This document shows, in pieces, positions 6,751 through 15,002 of a stretch of 47,029 nt of DNA. Source of the DNA: Verrucomicrobiia bacterium (lineage in GTDB: Bacteria; Verrucomicrobiota; Verrucomicrobiia; Limisphaerales; DSYF01); contig DASTWL010000095.1 in assembly GCA_035765895.1 (NCBI GenBank), positions 1 to 47,029 of the forward strand. The letters run 5' to 3'. The translations under genes and the position numbers were made by a program. Positions within the stretch are counted from its first letter, which is position 1. Each line of letters begins with the position of its first letter. The notes beneath the pieces are model-generated. The model worked only from the letters and a program-made list of their open reading frames with translations, had not been told where the DNA came from and ran no database searches.

Positions 6751-7569
6751 ATGAACAAGGCTGAGCAAAATGCCGCCCTGCGCTGCGCCGTTGCCGCCGC
6801 TCGCGCAGCCGGCGCGCTGATGCGCCGCAACCTGACGGCGACGAAGACGGTCAACCTCCGCGCCACCCACGACATCAAGCTCGAGCTGGACGTGCGCTGC
6901 CAGAGGCTGATCGAACGCCGGCTGTCCCGGGATTTTCCCGCCATTGCAGTGCTCGGCGAGGAAGGTGAATCGGGCCTGGCCGACGCGCCGGCACGCTGGG
7001 TGATTGATCCCATAGACGGCACCGTGAATTTCGCCTACGGCATTCCCCACGCGTGCGTCTGCATTGCCCTCCAGGTGCGCAGCCGTTCCCGAACGGCGCA
7101 GATGGACGGCGGCTACGAAACCATCGTCGGCGTGGTTTACGATCCGTTCATGGATGAACTCTGGAGCGCGACGGCCGGCGACGTGGCGCGCTTGAACGGC
7201 AAACCCATCCGCGTCAGCACACGCGCCCGGCTGAGCGACGCCATTAGCGCGATGGGCTACGGCAAAAATGAAAAGACGATGGCCATTGCCCTGAAATTGT
7301 TCCGCAACCTGTCACGCCGCTCCCGCAAGGTGCGCAACATGGGTGCGGCCGGGCTGGCGCTGGCCTACGTGGCGACCGGACGATTCGACGCCTACATCGA
7401 GCGGGGCATCAGCATTTGGGACATTGCGGCCGGCGGCTTCATTGTGGAACGGGCGGGCGGTGAATTCTGGCGCGAGCGCCTGCGCGATGGCAGCGGTTAC
7501 CGGATGATTGCCAGCAACGGCAGGTTGCGGAGGCAGATTGAATCACTGCACGAAACCCGCCGCGCCTAG
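6751..7569 (+). CDS. Inositol monophosphatase family protein
   Basis: The 272-aa protein is a lithium-sensitive Mg-dependent phosphatase fold. Metal-site motifs are complete: GEEGES, then WVIDPIDGTVNFAYGIPH, and the C-terminal WDIAAGGFIVERAGG. Likely substrates are inositol-1-phosphate, histidinol-phosphate or 3'-phosphoadenosine-5'-phosphate; the sequence alone does not decide. Start ATG 6751 is chosen because the usual short helix (AALRCAVAAARAAGALM) begins directly after it. Its stop codon TAG shares the palindrome CTAG with the stop of the convergent rdgB. Confidence 0.9.
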   Translation: MNKAEQNAALRCAVAAARAAGALMRRNLTATKTVNLRATHDIKLELDVRCQRLIERRLSRDFPAIAVLGEEGESGLADAPARWVIDPIDGTVNFAYGIPHACVCIALQVRSRSRTAQMDGGYETIVGVVYDPFMDELWSATAGDVARLNGKPIRVSTRARLSDAISAMGYGKNEKTMAIALKLFRNLSRRSRKVRNMGAAGLALAYVATGRFDAYIERGISIWDIAAGGFIVERAGGEFWRERLRDGSGYRMIASNGRLRRQIESLHETRRA

Positions 7570-8267
7570 GAACGCGGCCGCTGGAAGTGCTGTCTCAGTT
7601 TGGCCAGGGCCTGGCCGCGATGGCTGAGGCGGTTTTTCTCCGCGCGCGGCAGCAGCGCAAAGGACTTTTCGAGACCGACGGGATAAAACAACGGATCGTA
7701 GCCGAAGCCGTCCCCGCCGCGCGGTTCAAAGCCAATTACGCCTTCACAAACCCCCTCGAACACATGGGTGCTCAGTTCAAATTCGTCGGCCAGACAAACC
7801 GGTGAGGCGCTGTCCACCGTGCCGGCCAGCACCGGCGTGAGCGCAAGCACACAGCGAAACCGGGCGGTGCGCCGCGGCCCGGGCACGTCCCCCAGCAGCC
7901 GCAACAACTTGGCGTTGTTTTCCGAATCCTTGGAGTTTCCCGGCGCCCCGGTGTCGAGCGCCGCAAAGCGGGCCGAATGCACGCCGGGAGCGCCGTTCAA
8001 TGCATCCACCTCCAAACCGGAATCGTCGGCCAGCACATGCCAGGCGGCCGCCGCCTCCCTGCCCATCGTCTCACGATTGATGGACAGCCAGCGCGCGATC
8101 TCGATGGCCTTCTTGCGCGCGTTGCCCTCGAACGTGGCCGCGTCTTCGACCACGTGGGGTGAGCCAACATAATCGGCCAGTGTGGAATACTGGAAGGCGT
8201 TGCCAAGAATGGCACGAATCTCTCCGATCTTGTGCGTGTTGCGGGTGGCGATGACCAGTTGCTTCAT
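7566..8267 (-). CDS. rdgB: XTP/dITP diphosphatase (RdgB/HAM1 family)
   Basis: House-cleaning enzyme that hydrolyses dITP, XTP and ITP to monophosphates. The opening MKQLVIATRNTHKIGEI, then FEGNARKKA, LADDSGLEVDALNGAPGVHSARFA, GFGYDPLFYP and the closing LSHRGQAL are the family landmarks. It has 233 aa, slightly longer than the usual ~200. The start at 8267 gives the canonical N-terminus; an in-frame ATG lies 12 bp upstream. It is convergent with the phosphatase gene with overlapping stops, and lies downstream of the cupredoxin gene across a hairpin. Confidence 0.93.
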   Translation of the reverse strand: MKQLVIATRNTHKIGEIRAILGNAFQYSTLADYVGSPHVVEDAATFEGNARKKAIEIARWLSINRETMGREAAAAWHVLADDSGLEVDALNGAPGVHSARFAALDTGAPGNSKDSENNAKLLRLLGDVPGPRRTARFRCVLALTPVLAGTVDSASPVCLADEFELSTHVFEGVCEGVIGFEPRGGDGFGYDPLFYPVGLEKSFALLPRAEKNRLSHRGQALAKLRQHFQRPRS

Positions 8268-8290
8268 CGGGGGCAACATGCCAGCGCCGC

Positions 8291-8315
8291 CGCGACTTGG
8301 CGAGGCCAAGTCGCG
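8291..8315. repeat. Perfect 11-bp hairpin with GAG loop between rdgB and the cupredoxin gene
   Basis: CGCGACTTGGC, loop GAG, GCCAAGTCGCG. It sits in the 51 bp between the cupredoxin stop and the rdgB start. No T-tract follows on either strand, so it is a poor intrinsic terminator. It shares the three-base-loop, GGC-core design of the hairpins inside valS. Confidence 0.75.
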
Positions 8316-8318
8316 CCG

Positions 8319-9176
8319 TCAAGGCCAGTCCTGGCGGACGCGGTAGAACCGTCGCTCATCCGTCCCCACGACGTTGGTGAAGGAGATGACCGGTGCGGCA
8401 TTGGCATTGGTCGCAAACGCCGACCACGAGAGCAGGTTCGTGGAAAACTCCGCAATGTAAGCCTGCCCCGCGGTCGCATTGACGTCGAAGTGAAAGCTCC
8501 CGGCGGCAGCACCGGGATTCACGATCGTTGCGCTCGTCAGCACCTGAATGGTCACGGGCGCGGACGTCGTTGCCAGTCCCAGGTCATCCACGGCCTGCGC
8601 GGTAAATGTATAATTGCCGGCACCGAGGTTGCTGGCCGTGGTTTGATACGGGGCCGCCGCGACATCTGCAAGCGAGGTGGTCCCGCTGAAGAATTGCACG
8701 CTGGCCACACTGCCATCCGCGTCGCTGGCCGAAGCCTGCAACAGCACGTTGGCCGGCGCGAGGAACTTTGCCCCGGGCGCGGGGTTGGTAATGCTGACGA
8801 GCGGCGCCGTATTGGCACCGTTGGTGATGGTCAGCGTGCCGGTCATGCCGAGAAAGCAATGCGGCACGCAAAAATAGGGATACACACCCGTGTTCAGGTT
8901 CGTGAAGGTGAATTTGAACGTCCCCCCACCGGCAATGTTGCCGCTGCTCCACAAACCATCCGGCGAACAACTGCTGCCGCTGGTGGACGTGTGCGTGATG
9001 CCGCTGACATTCGTCCAGATCACCGTGTCTCCTTTCGCGATGGCCAGCGTGGCGGGAACGAAAGTCAGGCTGCCGGTCATTTGCACGACATGTGTGGCAG
9101 CCAGAAGCGCCGGGGCAACAAGGAACAGCCCTGTAACGGTCAGACAACGAAGGGACAGATGAATCACTTTTTTCAT
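8319..9176 (-). CDS. Secreted cupredoxin (plastocyanin-like) with Ig-like domain
   Basis: This 285-aa exported protein starts with a signal peptide (MKKVIHLSLRCLTV...ALLA, residues 1-27). A type-1 copper domain follows (28-118) with all four expected ligands: His62 (ITHTST), Cys103, His106 and Met111 in YFCVPHCFLGM. A bacterial Ig-like domain (about 124-215) comes next, and a C-terminal W...FYRVRQ module (about 225-285). Type-1 copper proteins shuttle single electrons. It is co-directional with and directly downstream of the barrel and multiheme genes (19-bp gap), which suggests it takes part in the same electron-transfer chain; that role is inferred. Confidence 0.88.
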   Translation of the reverse strand: MKKVIHLSLRCLTVTGLFLVAPALLAATHVVQMTGSLTFVPATLAIAKGDTVIWTNVSGITHTSTSGSSCSPDGLWSSGNIAGGGTFKFTFTNLNTGVYPYFCVPHCFLGMTGTLTITNGANTAPLVSITNPAPGAKFLAPANVLLQASASDADGSVASVQFFSGTTSLADVAAAPYQTTASNLGAGNYTFTAQAVDDLGLATTSAPVTIQVLTSATIVNPGAAAGSFHFDVNATAGQAYIAEFSTNLLSWSAFATNANAAPVISFTNVVGTDERRFYRVRQDWP

Positions 9177-9195: not shown

Positions 9196-11637
9196 TCACG
9201 GAACAGGAATGGTCGCACTCGCAAACAAGGCGTGCGCGCGGTAGTCGTTCAGCCCGCCAAAGCTGGGCTCGTGGTATTGAAAAAATCCGTAGCCCAAGGT
9301 GGTGGTCACCCCATCCTTGAAGCGGTGCACCAGCGAAACCTGAACGGCATGCCGGTCATAAACGATGCCCGCCGGAAGGCCGCTCGCGGCGTTGTTTTGG
9401 CCGTAGTCCGATTGGGTGAACGCGTAACTTCCCCGCAAATCCGTCGCCGGGCTGAGCGCAAAGGTGGCGCTGGTCAGGACGCTGTAAACGTTGCCCTGCC
9501 ACGGCGCCAGATAGCCCGCGCCGTTGCTGGCCGTGCGCGTGAGCGAATCCGAAAAGGAAAAGGTGCCGGAAAAGAAAAGCCGGCGAAACGGTGTCAACAC
9601 GGCATTCAGGCTGTAAACCCGCGATTCAAAATTGGCGGCGTCGATGGCCCCGCCGGGCGAGGAACCAGGCACCGGACCGGTGGCGCTGTTGAAGTCGGAT
9701 TGCACCCACTTGAAGGTGAATGCGGTCCGCAACCACGCGTTCGCCCGCCACGTGACCCGCGCGTCCACCTGATTGTCCACAATGTCGCGCCAAAGAATGA
9801 AACCCGGATAGAGATGACCGCTCGGGTTGAAGGGTTCCACGTGCGTGTAGTCAGTGCGCCGGTCACGCCGGCGGTAATCCGCGCCGAAGGAAACGCTGGA
9901 CCACGGTGACGTGTTGAAGCCGGTGCGATATTCGGACGTTTGAATGTCCGCATCCGTGTCGAGGGCGAACGCTTCCGAACCGTCAGGACGCTCATCAAAC
10001 CGCGCCAGGCTCTCCTGCCGCAACCGCAGCTCGCCGGAGAGGATGGTGAACGGGATTACCGTGTAACGCAGCAGCACATTTTCGCGTGCGCTGGCCGTGT
10101 CCAAATCCCCCGTCACCGCCGAGGGATCCGAGAACAGGATGGGGATGCTTGGATCACCGATGCGCAAGTCCTCCTGCCCAACGGTTTTTTGTCGCACCCA
10201 CTCCCCCTGCCCGCCCATCGACAGGCTCAATCCCGCCCATGGTCCGGCGAGTCCGGCCACACTCGTGGCGTGCGTTTCCCGCATCATCATGAGGCGGTCC
10301 GCCTGCCATTGCAGACCGCCGGTGAACTGGCCATTGCCGGCGAGCGTGCTTTGATCCAGCGTGCCGTCGCCCTCAAGACGCGCATACAAATAGCCGCCCG
10401 AAACGGACAGCCAGTCAGCCAGTTGTTTGTTCACCCGGAAGGTGTTCGCCCCGCTGACGTGATGATACGTCTCCCGCACGACCACGAGCGTGTCCGGGCC
10501 CGGGCCAAACGTGTCCGCCGCCGCATTCTGCCGTCGAGTGGAAAGATCATAAAATTCCACCACCCCATGGTCCGCCAGTTCCCAGCCGCGCAATTCGTGG
10601 CTGGCATCCAGTTTGAGAAGATGCGCGTGTTCGTCGAGGTGCTCGAAAGCGGGGTAAACGGACTTCGCATCCGTGTTGGGATCAAACGGCGGCAATGTGC
10701 CCGCCGGTCCCCATTGCAATGTCGATTTATCGCCCTCACGAAACTGATACTCGTAGCCCAAAACCAGCCGCGGATAATGAGGCAGTGTCAAGCCGGCCTC
10801 AAACCACGCCCGGCCGACATCCAGATGCAGATCACGGTGGAGCGCAAAGGCGTTGGTCGGCAGTGTCGGGGCAAAGCCGCCCGTGTCGTTGTAAAATTCG
10901 CGCCACGATTCAAAGCCAGCATGAACGAAGCCGACGTCGTTCTTTACCAAACGGAGCGCCAGGCGGTAATTCTCGTCCCCGGCCAGCGCCCGGCCTTCAA
11001 CACTTGCGGCCGTGTCGGGGCTGACCTGCTCATGCAACTCAAAATGCTCCAGCCCGCCGGCCCACCCGTCATTGATGCCTTCGATCTCTCGAAACTGGCT
11101 CCGGTTGCCATGCACCGAAATCCAGCGCAGCGTTGGCGTGATTGAAAGCGACAGCTTGGACGGCGCGTTCGTGGACCAATGCGCGCCTTGATCAATCCAG
11201 GCCCGCAGCAGCCGGATTTGCGCAACCGTCAGCGGCTTGTCCCTGTCGCCCGGTGGCATCTGCGTGTCCGGATCCAGCCCGGCGACGTAATGAATCAACC
11301 GGCTCCGCGCACTGTCGCCCGGCACAATGTCGTTTGTGTTGTCATCACCGCCCTTCAACGCGGACTCCCGGTTGTCGAGGCGAAACCGGCTCTTCGCCTT
11401 GTTGGGGCCGTGACAACGAAAGCATGACTGCTCGAAAATCGGCCGGACGTCCCGGTCATAATCCACCGTCACGCCGGCGGGCGGCGGCAGCTTGGCCACA
11501 TCCACTTCGGCAGCCATCAGCCGGACGCCGGTGTGGGCGGCCAGAAAACTCAACACCAGCCGTGGCCAGCATTGGCCGAAGCCAGCCGCCAGCCGCTTCA
11601 CCCCGCCTCCGTTCAACAGGTTGTGGTTAGTTGGCAT
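9196..11637 (-). CDS. Outer-membrane beta-barrel (MtrB/PioB-like) with N-terminal monoheme cytochrome c domain
   Basis: The 813-aa product starts with a signal peptide (hydrophobic run LVLSFLAAHTGVRLMAA, cleavage near residue 43). Residues about 55-155 form a planctomycete-type cytochrome c domain: YDRDVRPIFEQSCFRCHGPN with heme motif Cys72-Cys75-His76, and a likely distal Met127 in DTQMPPGD. The rest is a large alternating-residue barrel (FRVNKQLADWLSVSGGYLYA, SVSFGADYRRRDRRTDY, WLRTAFTFKWVQSDF) like the MtrB/PioB sheaths that hold a multiheme cytochrome across the outer membrane. The octaheme gene lies 18 bp upstream. A GTG at 11601 preceded by GGAGG is an alternative start. The barrel family is inferred from pattern and neighbour; the heme domain is read directly. 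Confidence 0.8.
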   Translation of the reverse strand: MPTNHNLLNGGGVKRLAAGFGQCWPRLVLSFLAAHTGVRLMAAEVDVAKLPPPAGVTVDYDRDVRPIFEQSCFRCHGPNKAKSRFRLDNRESALKGGDDNTNDIVPGDSARSRLIHYVAGLDPDTQMPPGDRDKPLTVAQIRLLRAWIDQGAHWSTNAPSKLSLSITPTLRWISVHGNRSQFREIEGINDGWAGGLEHFELHEQVSPDTAASVEGRALAGDENYRLALRLVKNDVGFVHAGFESWREFYNDTGGFAPTLPTNAFALHRDLHLDVGRAWFEAGLTLPHYPRLVLGYEYQFREGDKSTLQWGPAGTLPPFDPNTDAKSVYPAFEHLDEHAHLLKLDASHELRGWELADHGVVEFYDLSTRRQNAAADTFGPGPDTLVVVRETYHHVSGANTFRVNKQLADWLSVSGGYLYARLEGDGTLDQSTLAGNGQFTGGLQWQADRLMMMRETHATSVAGLAGPWAGLSLSMGGQGEWVRQKTVGQEDLRIGDPSIPILFSDPSAVTGDLDTASARENVLLRYTVIPFTILSGELRLRQESLARFDERPDGSEAFALDTDADIQTSEYRTGFNTSPWSSVSFGADYRRRDRRTDYTHVEPFNPSGHLYPGFILWRDIVDNQVDARVTWRANAWLRTAFTFKWVQSDFNSATGPVPGSSPGGAIDAANFESRVYSLNAVLTPFRRLFFSGTFSFSDSLTRTASNGAGYLAPWQGNVYSVLTSATFALSPATDLRGSYAFTQSDYGQNNAASGLPAGIVYDRHAVQVSLVHRFKDGVTTTLGYGFFQYHEPSFGGLNDYRAHALFASATIPVP

Positions 11638-11655: not shown

Positions 11656-12468
11656 TCAGTATTGCAATCGAGGATCGACGTTGGAGCCATGCACCGCGGT
11701 ATGGCAGCCTGCCGTCCAGCAGGTCGCCCGGCTCAAAAATGCCGTGTGATCCACGGCACCAATCATGACCACGCCCGTGCCGCCGGCGACGCCCTGATTC
11801 TGCGCATGACAGCGCAGACAGAGGTTGGCGTCGGCCTGGACCAGCAGCTTGCGATTTACAGAACCGTGGGGATTGTGGCACGTGGTGCAGCCCTCCCGCA
11901 TGGCCTCGTGTTCGAAGACGAAGGGCCGCGTTTGTTCGCGATGGCAGGCGGCGCACGTTTCATTCTCGCGTGCCATGGCAAGCCCGCCGGACGATTTGAA
12001 TATGTCCATCCCGTGCGGGTCATGACACTGCACGCAGTTCATCTGCCCGCTGGCGACCGGATGATGATGCGCCAGGCTGAACTCGCCCCGCGTTTCCAAA
12101 TGGCAGGCAAAGCAGGCCGACGGATCCCGCCCCGGATTGATGATGAACTTGCCCCGCCCGCCGCCCGCCGCGACGTGAAGGCTGCCCGGACCGTGACACG
12201 ATTCGCAGCCGGAAACGCGTCCGCCCGGCGCATCGGCAAAATGCGCGCGGGCGTGCGGACTGGCTGGAAAACGGCGCACATATTGCGCGTGGCAGTCGGC
12301 GCAGGCACGGCTGCCGACATACGTGGCTCCGGGAATGGTCGGCAAAAGTTCCACGGTCGCCGGCACCGAGGAGCAGGAGTTCAACAGCGCCGACAGCACG
12401 AGTGCCACCAACGTCGCCGTCAAAGCGGCCGCCAGACCGGTTGCGCCTGCCATCAAGCAGTTTTTCAT
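11656..12468 (-). CDS. Octaheme c-type cytochrome lipoprotein (MtrA/DmsE-like)
   Basis: Of 270 residues, the first 31 form a lipoprotein signal with lipobox LNSC (Cys32). Seven CxxCH motifs follow (Cys56, 88, 119, 145, 172, 194, 217), with an eighth CX4CH motif at Cys250-Cys255-His256. Paired spacing and extra His residues (SLAHHHP, FEHE, HTAFL, TAVHGS) fit bis-His ligated hemes in a wire like MtrA, PioA or DmsE. These sit inside a beta-barrel and pass electrons between periplasm and exterior. It is first of three co-directional genes. Start 12468 gives the cleanest signal sequence; the frame is open upstream. Direction of electron flow (metal reduction or Fe(II) oxidation) cannot be read from sequence. 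Confidence 0.87.
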   Translation of the reverse strand: MKNCLMAGATGLAAALTATLVALVLSALLNSCSSVPATVELLPTIPGATYVGSRACADCHAQYVRRFPASPHARAHFADAPGGRVSGCESCHGPGSLHVAAGGGRGKFIINPGRDPSACFACHLETRGEFSLAHHHPVASGQMNCVQCHDPHGMDIFKSSGGLAMARENETCAACHREQTRPFVFEHEAMREGCTTCHNPHGSVNRKLLVQADANLCLRCHAQNQGVAGGTGVVMIGAVDHTAFLSRATCWTAGCHTAVHGSNVDPRLQY

Positions 12469-12817
12469 CACGCGACTCGTGTATTTTTTTGTGTGCTGAG
12501 AATGGCCAGCCCGGCCGCCCGGGATTGCTCCCGGATCGCCATGCGCGGGTGCCAGCTTTCTTCGGTCCATGGCCAGACGGGCACCCGGTGTCGGGTGGCC
12601 CGGCGGCCCGGCGGGCGCACGGATGCCACCTGAATTCGCCCGCTTTTTTGCCGGCACGACGGGATCCATCTCGGCTTCACGTTCCTTACGAGGGGCCAGT
12701 GGGAAGTTTGTTCCCGAGAATTCCGCTCGAATTCACGGGCGGCCCCGCGCAGAGTGAGGCACGCAACCATCCGTCCCCGGGAACATTTTGGCGGCTTGTT
12801 GCTCCTACACATGCGAC
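12469..12817. promoter_or_regulatory. Divergent intergenic region between cytochrome and sigma-factor genes
   Basis: I see no gene in these 349 bp. They must hold the divergent promoters. Two adjacent inverted repeats, GGGAA-5-TTCCC (12701-12715) and GAATTC-5-GAATTC (12718-12734), are candidate operators. GGGAAC at 12778-12783 resembles an ECF -35 element 35 bp before the sigma-factor start, but no convincing -10 partner is visible. Confidence 0.4.
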
Positions 12818-13345
12818 ATGGCGGCGGAGCTTGAATTTGAAGCCCTGGTGGCCCGGTTTTACGAGCCACTCTACCGGTTCGCGTTCAGCCTGTGCCGCGA
12901 CGAGGCCGACGCATGCGATTTGACGCAACAGACCTTCTACGTGTGGGCCAGCAAGGGGCACCAATTACGCGACCGGGGCAAGGTCAAGACCTGGTTGTTT
13001 ACCACGCTGCACCGGCTGTTTCTGGAGACGCGCCGCCGTGCCACGCTGCATCCGCACGAAGAACTGGATGCCGCCGACGAATCACTTGCCGCACCGGCCC
13101 CCGAACTCGCCAATCAACTCGACGCCCCGCAGGTCTTGCAGGCACTGGCCCGCGTGGATGCCGTTTACCAAGCGCCGGTGGCACTGTTTTATCTGGAAGA
13201 TTACGCCTACAAGGAAATCGCCGCCATTCTCGACGTGCCCATGGGAACCGTAAAATCGCGCATCGCCCGGGGAATCGCGCAATTGCAAAAGCTCCTGAAC
13301 GATGACCCCACCCCAACGCATTCAAACGGAGGGCTGAACCCATGA
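12818..13345 (+). CDS. ECF RNA polymerase sigma factor
   Basis: A 175-aa sigma-70 family protein with region 2 (FYEPLYRFAFSLC, ADACDLTQQTFYVWAS, VKTWLFTTLHRLFLETRRR) and region 4 (YQAPVALFYLEDYAYKEIAA, ILDVPMGTVKSRIARGIAQL). Region 3 and region 1.1 are absent, as in ECF factors. It is transcribed away from the cytochrome cluster. Its last codons overlap the next gene by ATGA, so the two are translationally coupled, as sigma/anti-sigma pairs often are. Start ATG 12818 places the region-2 helix at the usual distance from the N-terminus. Confidence 0.92.
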   Translation: MAAELEFEALVARFYEPLYRFAFSLCRDEADACDLTQQTFYVWASKGHQLRDRGKVKTWLFTTLHRLFLETRRRATLHPHEELDAADESLAAPAPELANQLDAPQVLQALARVDAVYQAPVALFYLEDYAYKEIAAILDVPMGTVKSRIARGIAQLQKLLNDDPTPTHSNGGLNP

Positions 13346-14100
13346 CTCGCGACGACGCCAAGCGCATTCTCGCCAGCCACCGGCCCTGGGCCGAGGAGCC
13401 GGCCGACTCGGAAACGAACGCGGCCCTCGAACTCGTCCGCCAGGATGCGGACCTGTCCCGCTGGTTTGCGCGGCATTGTGCCCGTCAGGATCAAATTCGC
13501 GAAAGCCTGCTGCGCGTGAAGCCGCCCGCCGCCCTCCTGGAGCAGATTCTTTCCGAGCGCCCGGCGCCTGCCCCAGCAGGACGAAAAATGCCAGCCTTGA
13601 TCACCGCGGCGTTTTTGCTCCTCATGCTGGGCGGCGCCGGCTTCTGGCTCACGCAGCGCACCGGAACGAACGATGAATTGAGCTACACGAATTACCGCAG
13701 CCGGATGGTGCGGAAGGCGCTGCGGATTTACGGCATGGATCTGGAGACAAACAGCCCGACGGTGATCCGCGCCTACCTGGCCGAGCACGGTGCGCGGGCC
13801 GATTATCAACTGCCGCCACGGCTCGCGGCCGCGGCCAGCGCCGGGTGTGGCGTGCTCAAATGGCAGGGCCATCCGGTGACAATGGTTTGTTTCAAATCCG
13901 GCCGGCCACTGAAACCCACCGAAAAGGCGGATCTGTTTCTCTTCGTCATCAACCGGCAGGCGGCATCGGACATTCCAGCCAGTGGCGAACCACAATGGCA
14001 GCAGGTGAACAAATTGATGACCGCGAGCTGGAGTGCCGGCGACAATGTTTACCTGCTGGCCGCGCCGGGTGATGAAGCTTTTCTCGCGCAGTTTCTCTGA
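13342..14100 (+). CDS. Membrane-anchored anti-sigma-like protein
   Basis: The 252-aa protein has a cytoplasmic N-terminal helical part (residues 1-80; DADLSRWFARHCARQDQI...PPAALLEQIL), one transmembrane helix (about 84-103, ALITAAFLLLMLGGAGFWL) and a roughly 150-residue exported domain. This is the topology of an anti-sigma factor, and it overlaps the sigma gene by 4 bp. The canonical zinc anti-sigma motif (HxxxCxxC) is not present. The outer domain (FLFVINRQAASDI, AGDNVYLLAAPGD) is not one I recognise. Function is inferred from pairing and topology. Confidence 0.65.
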   Translation: MTRDDAKRILASHRPWAEEPADSETNAALELVRQDADLSRWFARHCARQDQIRESLLRVKPPAALLEQILSERPAPAPAGRKMPALITAAFLLLMLGGAGFWLTQRTGTNDELSYTNYRSRMVRKALRIYGMDLETNSPTVIRAYLAEHGARADYQLPPRLAAAASAGCGVLKWQGHPVTMVCFKSGRPLKPTEKADLFLFVINRQAASDIPASGEPQWQQVNKLMTASWSAGDNVYLLAAPGDEAFLAQFL

Positions 14101-14117: not shown

Positions 14118-15002
14118 TCAATACCCGCTGCGGGGCACTGAATCGCTGTCCACGCTCATGTGATCCGTGATCCACTTGAAGTCGGCTGACTGGGTGCGGG
14201 AGACGTAGAACGGCAGCGCCGCCCCATCCGGTTTGGCCGGGGCCTTGGTGCTGTCCACCACCCAGCGGCGCAACTGGCTGTGACCGTCGGCAAAGGAGAA
14301 CGAGGCCGCCCCGTCGTGATACGAGGCCGGCAGATCCACCCATTCCTGGTAGGAGGCACGGTTCAAAAAATAGCCGTCGTTGATGCTGTCCGGATGTTCG
14401 TCCAGAAAGACGAAGATTTCCGCCGGATGCGGAATGGAGGTGATCCGGAAAAACTGCACATAGCCCGGATTGTTGACGTTGGAGCCCATGCGCGACAATT
14501 CCCCGGCATCCCCCACCATGGCATTCATTGAGTAACTGCGGATGCGCGCTGTCCAGCCCGCCTGCCTTTGGATCGCGCTCAGCACGTGATCGGACGGACA
14601 TCGGTAAATGTTCACTGACCGGTTGCCGTAAGGTCCCAAGCTGGCCTCGGTGATGGTGGCCGTGTTGGTGTTGTCCGGGTCCAGCTCCCACGTCATGATG
14701 TTGTTGACCCAGTTCAAATTGGTCCGCTGGGCCACGGTGGACCGCGAAGCGTCACCGCCGAGGTTATACGGCAGGCGGCCCTCGTGATCATCCGCGTAAA
14801 GCGTCCAAGCCAGCCCAAGCTGGCGGGTGTTGCTGAGACAGCCGACGGCTTGGGCGCGGTTTTTGGCGCGGTTGAGGGCCGGCAACAACAGGGCCGACAA
14901 AATGCCGATCATCGCGATGACGACCAACAATTCCACCAAAGTGAAGGCGGGCCCACCGGAAAGGAAACGTCTCGCACCGCCGCGCTGAAGGACTGGTTTC
15001 AT
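14118..15002 (-). CDS. Type II secretion/type IV pilin-like protein with prepilin N-terminus
   Basis: A 294-aa protein with a prepilin peptidase site: basic leader, then GPAFTLVELLVVIAMIGILS, the Phe-Thr-Leu-x-Glu start of a pseudopilin helix. The soluble part has the pattern common in Verrucomicrobia and Planctomycetes (CLSNTRQLGLAWTLYADDHEG, YRCPSD, FADGHSQLRRW). Such proteins are very numerous in these phyla and individual roles are mostly unknown. It is convergent with the anti-sigma-like gene (17 bp apart). Confidence 0.88.
   Translation of the reverse strand: MKPVLQRGGARRFLSGGPAFTLVELLVVIAMIGILSALLLPALNRAKNRAQAVGCLSNTRQLGLAWTLYADDHEGRLPYNLGGDASRSTVAQRTNLNWVNNIMTWELDPDNTNTATITEASLGPYGNRSVNIYRCPSDHVLSAIQRQAGWTARIRSYSMNAMVGDAGELSRMGSNVNNPGYVQFFRITSIPHPAEIFVFLDEHPDSINDGYFLNRASYQEWVDLPASYHDGAASFSFADGHSQLRRWVVDSTKAPAKPDGAALPFYVSRTQSADFKWITDHMSVDSDSVPRSGY

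Follow-up and report, generated by a model that had tools for sequence, protein, structure and literature searches.

The closest described relatives of the switch reported here are the RpoE-RseA-RseB system of E. coli and the AlgU-MucA-MucB system of P. aeruginosa, in which an ECF sigma factor and a single-span anti-sigma factor (RseA, MucA) are encoded in one autoregulated operon, and RseB or MucB is a separate, soluble periplasmic protein with N- and C-terminal domains. The -35 element of sigmaE is GGAAC. The class I anti-sigma domain is described, in the portion of PMC7406223 drawn on here, as four helices, three of them in a bundle. For electron conduits, the accessible portion of He et al. 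2017 (PMC5615132) describes porin-cytochrome clusters of Verrucomicrobia in which eight-heme periplasmic cytochromes adjoin the porin, and the corresponding portion of PMC6344600 treats putative Verrucomicrobia electron conduits at the community level. The word 'sigma' has no occurrence (0) in the main text of PMC5615132 as accessible to us, which names no regulator for the Verrucomicrobia clusters, and a literature search with most subscription journals outside its coverage returned no sigma factor or regulator for such a conduit.

The window, the whole 47,029-nucleotide stretch of Verrucomicrobiia DNA analysed here, is one contig (C95) of a 96-contig, 4.64-Mb genome and contains a switch of an ordinary kind, an ECF sigma factor with a membrane anti-sigma-like partner, that is unusual in its build and its target (Table 1). 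As in the RpoE and AlgU systems, sigma factor and single-span partner share one operon with predicted autoregulation, the predicted -35 contains a GGAAC resembling that of sigmaE, and the two domains of the partner resemble MucA and the C-terminal domain of RseB/MucB. Unlike those systems, a single 252-aa membrane protein with one span combines parts that are split between RseA and RseB, and it has no RseB N-domain; the resemblances are structural only, and the predicted targets are redox or secreted proteins. We read the locus as a self-regulating sigma/anti-sigma switch whose target here is the conduit and which acts in relatives as a general surface-redox or secreted-protein switch, and put the probability of this reading at about three in four.

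Table 1. Genes, predicted promoters and inverted repeats in and around the sigma-cytochrome gap (window positions)
Feature	Position	Strand	Basis or remark
Cupredoxin + Big_7 secreted protein, 301 aa	8319..9224	-	PF00127 E 3.1e-11, PF17957 E 6.2e-15
Barrel-like outer-membrane protein, 813 aa, PSCyt1 cytochrome domain at the N-terminus	9196..11637	-	PF07635 E 3.8e-15; accompanies cytochrome in relatives
Multiheme cytochrome, octaheme-like, 270 aa	11656..12468	-	7 CXXCH + one CX4CH
Predicted ECF promoter, conduit	12687..12716 (read 12716-12687)	-	CGGGAAC (-35) ... CTCGTA (-10); matrix score 22.7; exact strict-pattern match
Inverted repeat 1	12701..12715		GGGAAGTTTGTTCCC; right arm, read on the minus strand, forms the -35 of the predicted conduit promoter
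Inverted repeat 2 (two GAATTC)	12718..12734		GAATTCCGCTCGAATTC; between the two predicted promoters
Predicted ECF promoter, sigma-partner operon	12778..12807	+	CGGGAAC (-35) ... CTCCTA (-10); matrix score 24.6
ECF sigma factor gene, 175 aa	12818..13345	+	Sigma70_r2 + Sigma70_r4_2 (Pfam, above cut-off); TIGR02937
Membrane anti-sigma-like partner, 252 aa	13342..14100	+	Structure model; adjoins sigma in relatives
DUF1559 pseudopilin-like gene	14118..15002	-	PF07596; convergent with pair; conserved neighbour without motif

The sigma gene (ATG at 12818, last base of the stop codon at 13345) and the partner gene overlap by ATGA at 13342-13345, and the pair diverges from the minus-strand cytochrome gene (start at 12468) across a gap of 349 bp (12469-12817), both as an initial annotation of this DNA had put forward. 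By its domains the sigma protein belongs to the ECF group, having sigma2 and sigma4 and lacking sigma1 and sigma3: Sigma70_r2 matches residues 10-75 (E 3.9e-11), Sigma70_r4_2 matches residues 105-156 (E 2.9e-12), and the TIGR02937 sigma70-ECF model scores 66.7 bits against a cut-off of 42.9. Nine other loci in the genome match it at E <=0.001.

The divergent genes, with their putative barrel, resemble the clusters of He et al. 2017, as described in the accessible portion of PMC5615132, in placing a periplasmic cytochrome with eight heme sites beside a porin in Verrucomicrobia; they differ in that the window's barrel carries PSCyt1, and the likeness is one of description. The multiheme cytochrome is clear, and the adjacent putative barrel is known by its PSCyt1 domain only, its barrel part having no Pfam match. 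Because PSCyt1 stands at the N-terminus of a barrel-like protein, a porin and one heme site would be joined in a single chain. The best curated models for the cytochrome, the GSU2203-family decaheme (172 bits, cut-off 325) and the DmsE family (148 bits, cut-off 192), both fall below cut-off. Its heme motifs are invariant in 10 aligned sequences, as are the Cys, Cys and His of the CX4CH motif (CWTAGCH type), which is probably the eighth heme site, and the cupredoxin/Big_7 gene is likely the end of the conduit operon. Close relatives of the cytochrome in named genomes belong mostly to Limisphaerales, Pedosphaera and other Verrucomicrobia bins; three contigs titled Akkermansia muciniphila (L293, L298 and L323) carry Limisphaerales-like conduit cytochromes with 50-63% identity, and this species label looks wrong.

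A shared ECF promoter upstream of homologous clusters, for which the initial annotation had suggested looking, was found: GGGAAC-N17-CTCNTA. De novo word counts before the sigma gene at 75 loci (window included, without prior alignment) give GGGAAC in 63 and its reverse complement GTTCCC in 50; the dyad GGAAC-17-CTCT is present in 24 of the 75, and the best shuffled dyad in 4-6. In its strict form the pattern lies at a near-fixed distance of 34-47 bp before sigma in 33/75 loci, the window among them, and on the divergent side in nine; the window has both. A matrix was built from the 33 sigma-side sites, one of which came from the window, without use of the divergent strand, and leaving the window out still gives its sigma-side site a score of 24.2. 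The two sites in the gap are the only ones to score >=12 in the whole 47 kb, and none of seven further ECF loci in the genome has a site >=12 in the same scan. The strict pattern has six matches in 4.64 Mb, two of them in this gap, against 17 for the pattern read backwards; as such it is therefore not enriched genome-wide, and its concentration in the gap is the point, since the other four genome sites lead one to expect 0.0003 matches there and the probability of two is 4.5e-8. Because the predicted -10 ends 10 nt upstream of the sigma ATG, the sigma message would have little or no leader; the predicted conduit promoter lies ~220 bp upstream of the cytochrome ATG, and the conduit message would carry a leader of about 210 nt. 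Co-encoding of the partner with sigma, together with the common motif before sigma, may be taken as sequence-level signs of a cognate anti-sigma factor and a self-recognised promoter, and the predicted control of the conduit by sigma in this genome is well supported by sequence.

The gap also holds the two inverted repeats singled out in the initial annotation, although their standing as regulatory signals in their own right is not supported. In shuffles of 348 of the gap's 349 bases, the eight inverted repeats with five-base arms (shuffled mean 3.3) are reached by 3.7% of 300 shuffles and the three with six-base arms (mean 0.9) by 9.3%, which is weakly above chance, and a role as operators was set aside in favour of the promoter reading. 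The outward-facing pair of ECF-type promoters, unlike the repeats, is far beyond chance.

The partner has the anti-sigma topology without a zinc motif that had been noted earlier: it is a single-span membrane protein, and its sequence has no match to the zinc anti-sigma (ZAS) motif Hx3Cx2C. In an AlphaFold2 model (pLDDT 91.2) a cytoplasmic helical domain (residues 1-72) is followed by a helix at 84-106 and an outer domain at 133-252, and hydrophobicity over a 19-residue stretch is highest from residue 85. The protein has no Pfam match, and among NCBIfam models only an anti-sigmaE model at E 0.061. The outer domain, previously described as unrecognised, models like the C-terminal domain of RseB/MucB. 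RseB occupies Foldseek ranks 1-7, at E values of only 0.004-0.02, and a second aligner gives RseB a Z of 8.2 (rmsd 2.9 A over 89 residues) and MucB 7.3 and 7.1, the next family being TM1622 at 5.4 and all others <=4.4. The N-terminal domain modelled alone (pLDDT 87.0) has helices at 3-11, 23-34, 36-58 and 63-72 that fit the class I anti-sigma layout, although its structural matches are weak; the best is MucA in complex with AlgU (Z 5.1, next 4.1), and other anti-sigma structures are absent among the matches listed. Weak as it is, the MucA match comes from an independent domain and may point to the same circuit as the outer domain. Since identity in the structural matches is 4-17%, the likeness to RseB, MucB and MucA is one of resemblance, with descent unproven, and a partner-profile search of PDB sequences gives no anti-sigma factor or RseB, just RecX and a ribosomal protein at E >=0.18. 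Together the two resemblances suggest that the partner is probably an RseA/MucA-type anti-sigma factor fused to an RseB-C-like sensor, a one-protein design that would simplify a signalling circuit already studied in depth.

Among 74 aligned partners Cys183 is present in all and Cys169 in 58, the paralogous clade included. Because that clade also carries them the two cysteines are a family trait, and they were rejected as a conduit-specific sensor. Cys169 is replaced by glycine, with Cys183 kept, in the partners of L127, L133 and L137, which face GSDH/CHRD-type secreted genes, and of L153. Many aligned partners also show a weak likeness to DUF3379 (PF11859), which 62 of the 74 match at E <=1 (best 1.1e-11); it covers the N-terminal half in six of ten members checked singly, all six below cut-off. 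The window's own partner does not match PF11859 at E <=1 (the DUF3379 cut-off is 33.2 bits), a search over 20 relatives gives one weak match, and no paper on DUF3379 was found in the literature search, most subscription journals lying outside its coverage. At L107 in one genome (G228), part of a second partner-like sequence (7511-8518) is arranged in tandem with the partner.

At E 0.01 the partner is found in 21 of 40 relatives; across 293 genomes of the order, 121 have the partner at E 1e-8 and 171 have the cytochrome at E 1e-15. The gene neighbourhood was compared in 101 loci, namely the window and 100 stretches around partner hits that are mostly best-scoring rather than random, with genes called by a simple script and then clustered. 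The partner is found in 98 of these, sigma in 97, DUF1559 in 63, the cupredoxin/Big_7 cluster in 39, the barrel in 29, the cytochrome in 27, SCO1/CusF in 15 (SCO1 and CusF being confirmed for one member of that cluster), valS in 14 and rdgB in 12. A quick tree groups 80 partners in a single clade with good support (clade A, SH-aLRT 99). The cytochrome lies within the fetched stretch in 28 of these, is absent in 36 and has too short a flank in 16; where the flank suffices, 28/64 loci thus have the cytochrome and 36/64 have none in reach. On the partner tree the cytochrome label switches no fewer than 17 times, so the association has been gained or lost repeatedly. The cytochrome is mostly divergent, follows the partner on the same strand in L150 and L162, and precedes sigma on the same strand in L105 and L148. 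In the reverse view, 80 named cytochrome loci have the barrel in 67 and the partner in seven, so the conduit can do without the pair. The regulon is wider and looser than the initial annotation held, the pair often lacking a cytochrome and most conduits lacking the pair. That annotation would have given up its proposal if the pair occurred without cytochrome genes and no common promoter was found; the former is the case at the 36 clade-A loci, and the promoter was found. Its view that the pair controls the conduit is partly supported, sigma gene and conduit sharing a predicted promoter.

A scan of the 250 bp before each gene (score >=12; shuffled 0.4%) places the motif before sigma in 51/98, the cupredoxin cluster in 12/38, c14 in 4/6, k22 in 4/4 and the cytochrome in 3/27; it is found before none of the DUF1559 (0/69), barrel (0/29), partner (0/97), SCO1 (0/15), rdgB (0/12) and valS (0/13) genes, and before 14 of 634 other genes. 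The DUF1559 pilin, although the commonest neighbour after sigma itself, is thus rejected as a target. An intergenic scan covered 74 of 79 clade-A loci (L104, L116, L146, L164 and L166 have no called sigma or partner), of which 51 are divergent; L112 and L135, with gaps >900 bp, are not counted among these, and both carry sites on both strands. At a score >=12 (shuffled 0.9%) the 51 have 46 sites on the sigma side, a count that is partly circular because many loci supplied the matrix, and 32 on the divergent side, a count that is not; 29 loci have both. By facing gene, divergent-side sites are present for the cytochrome in 5/8 (the other three score <12 on that side), the cupredoxin cluster in 10/14, c14 in 5/5, k22 in 4/4, SCO1 in 2/2, the pilin in 3/10 and others in 3/8. 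The genes with such sites facing sigma are those of the cytochrome, of cupredoxin-cluster proteins, of SCO1 and of large secreted GSDH/CHRD/Big_7 proteins, and in L100 the second gene on the divergent strand is a TIGR03118-cupredoxin fusion. The cupredoxin-cluster label pools proteins sharing Big_7 with true cupredoxins, the L155 member for example having CHRD and Big_7 without a cupredoxin. What these targets have in common is secretion and, in most cases, redox chemistry (copper, heme, PQQ-type glucose/sorbosone dehydrogenase fold), which we take to mark a surface-redox or secreted-protein regulon, with a plain envelope response as the alternative. The variety of these extracytoplasmic proteins is the reason for regarding the switch as a general one with the conduit as its target here.

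Cytochromes lying apart from the pair provide a further comparison, using 700 bp of upstream sequence and a score >=11. The motif precedes the cytochrome in 6/17 cases (3/6 and 3/11) where a clade-A pair lies elsewhere in the genome, two further cytochromes having been dropped from the first set for too little upstream sequence, and in 1/25 (0/7 and 1/18) where the genome has no partner match, L267 and L272 being outside the 25 for the same reason. The difference (Fisher one-sided P 0.012) leans toward control of the cytochrome, though modestly: one family accounts for four of the six positives, and adding 12 genomes whose partner matches are weaker or partial (0/12) turns the first figure into 6/29. 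Five distant cytochromes (in G025, G057, G158, G183 and G075) have their own site 49-123 bp upstream, with scores of 17.6-26.8. In G169, which has no partner match, one site lies 1250 bp before the cytochrome, beyond the 700-bp scan. In 30 genomes, that of the window and 29 more with the pair, a stricter pattern has 41 matches against five for the reversed pattern, and many of the 41 sit at the pair itself.

The gene pair, the two outward promoters, the recurrence of both in relatives and the fold resemblance are computed; binding, the direction of control and the signal are what we infer in the following scheme. When no signal is present, the cytoplasmic helical domain of the partner would hold sigma at the inner membrane. 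The outer domain, with its fold like that of the RseB/MucB C-domain, would detect a change in the envelope, and a change in the partner's shape or its cutting, by analogy with RseA/MucA, would release sigma. Free sigma would direct RNA polymerase to GGGAAC-N17-CTCNTA promoters, where the site at 12778-12807 (+) would give positive autoregulation of the sigma-partner operon, and with it more inhibitor, and the site at 12716-12687 (-) would induce the cytochrome-barrel(-cupredoxin) genes. In relatives the same switch faces other extracytoplasmic proteins, namely cupredoxin, SCO1/CusF, secreted GSDH and CHRD proteins. The predicted sigma factor, anti-sigma factor, promoter word and target list make regulation of the conduit testable, and the promoter word, which can be scanned for in any genome of the order, would predict what the switch controls. 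Knowing the inducer of the switch would show when the surface electron-transfer machinery is built in these bacteria. That the signal is redox or copper is a guess. We think it unlikely that the partner, as a one-protein RseA- plus RseB-like anti-sigma factor, senses the redox or copper state of the periplasm by means of Cys183 (invariant) and Cys169 (mostly present), which lie on neighbouring strands, and so sets conduit expression through a dedicated ECF promoter; if true, electron flow in the envelope would be tied directly, at the level of transcription, to the making of the conduit in Verrucomicrobiota.

A narrower role for the conduit is possible, though we lean against it: the switch may chiefly control itself and secreted cupredoxin, GSDH and CHRD proteins, with the conduit a frequent passenger that is sometimes controlled, in a response to envelope stress rather than for electron export. 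The divergent motif is indeed more regular with c14 and k22 than with the cytochrome, the RseB/MucB likeness of the outer domain points to envelope stress, and the conduit is usually found without the pair. Against its being a passenger, the second promoter in the window faces the conduit with a score of 22.7, and the five distant cytochromes noted above have sites of their own.

The remaining explanations would take the ECF pair out of the circuit. The outward sites might be two start sites read by another sigma factor, or a repressor operator, and the further loci matching this sigma in the genome provide candidate readers; we consider this improbable, as the site is locked before this very sigma gene in 33/75 loci, is absent at seven other ECF loci and is replaced by a different word in the paralogous clade. 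We give very little credence to an accidental neighbourhood of genes that share the region by descent alone, to which the recurrence of valS and rdgB nearby (14/101 and 12/101) might point, given that the cytochrome stays close although its orientation varies and that the pair and the divergent genes have a promoter in common.

Among the deeper paralogues (20 loci) GGAATAA stands before sigma in 14, in place of the GGGAAC-type word, and the promoter word therefore changes with the sigma factor. The paralogous loci with this -35 word (L170-L191) have TlpA-like neighbours in several cases. Other strict-pattern matches in the window's genome precede a small membrane protein (C68, score 24.4) and a TIGR03118 protein (C87, 25.7); a site of the C68 type precedes 0/9 homologues, two more being without alignment there, and one of the C87 type 1/8, so neither is a conserved target, and both count as tentative targets in this genome. 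Finally, in G282 (L230) a second, close ECF sigma gene has the same motif directly upstream, on a contig that differs from that of the conduit pair.
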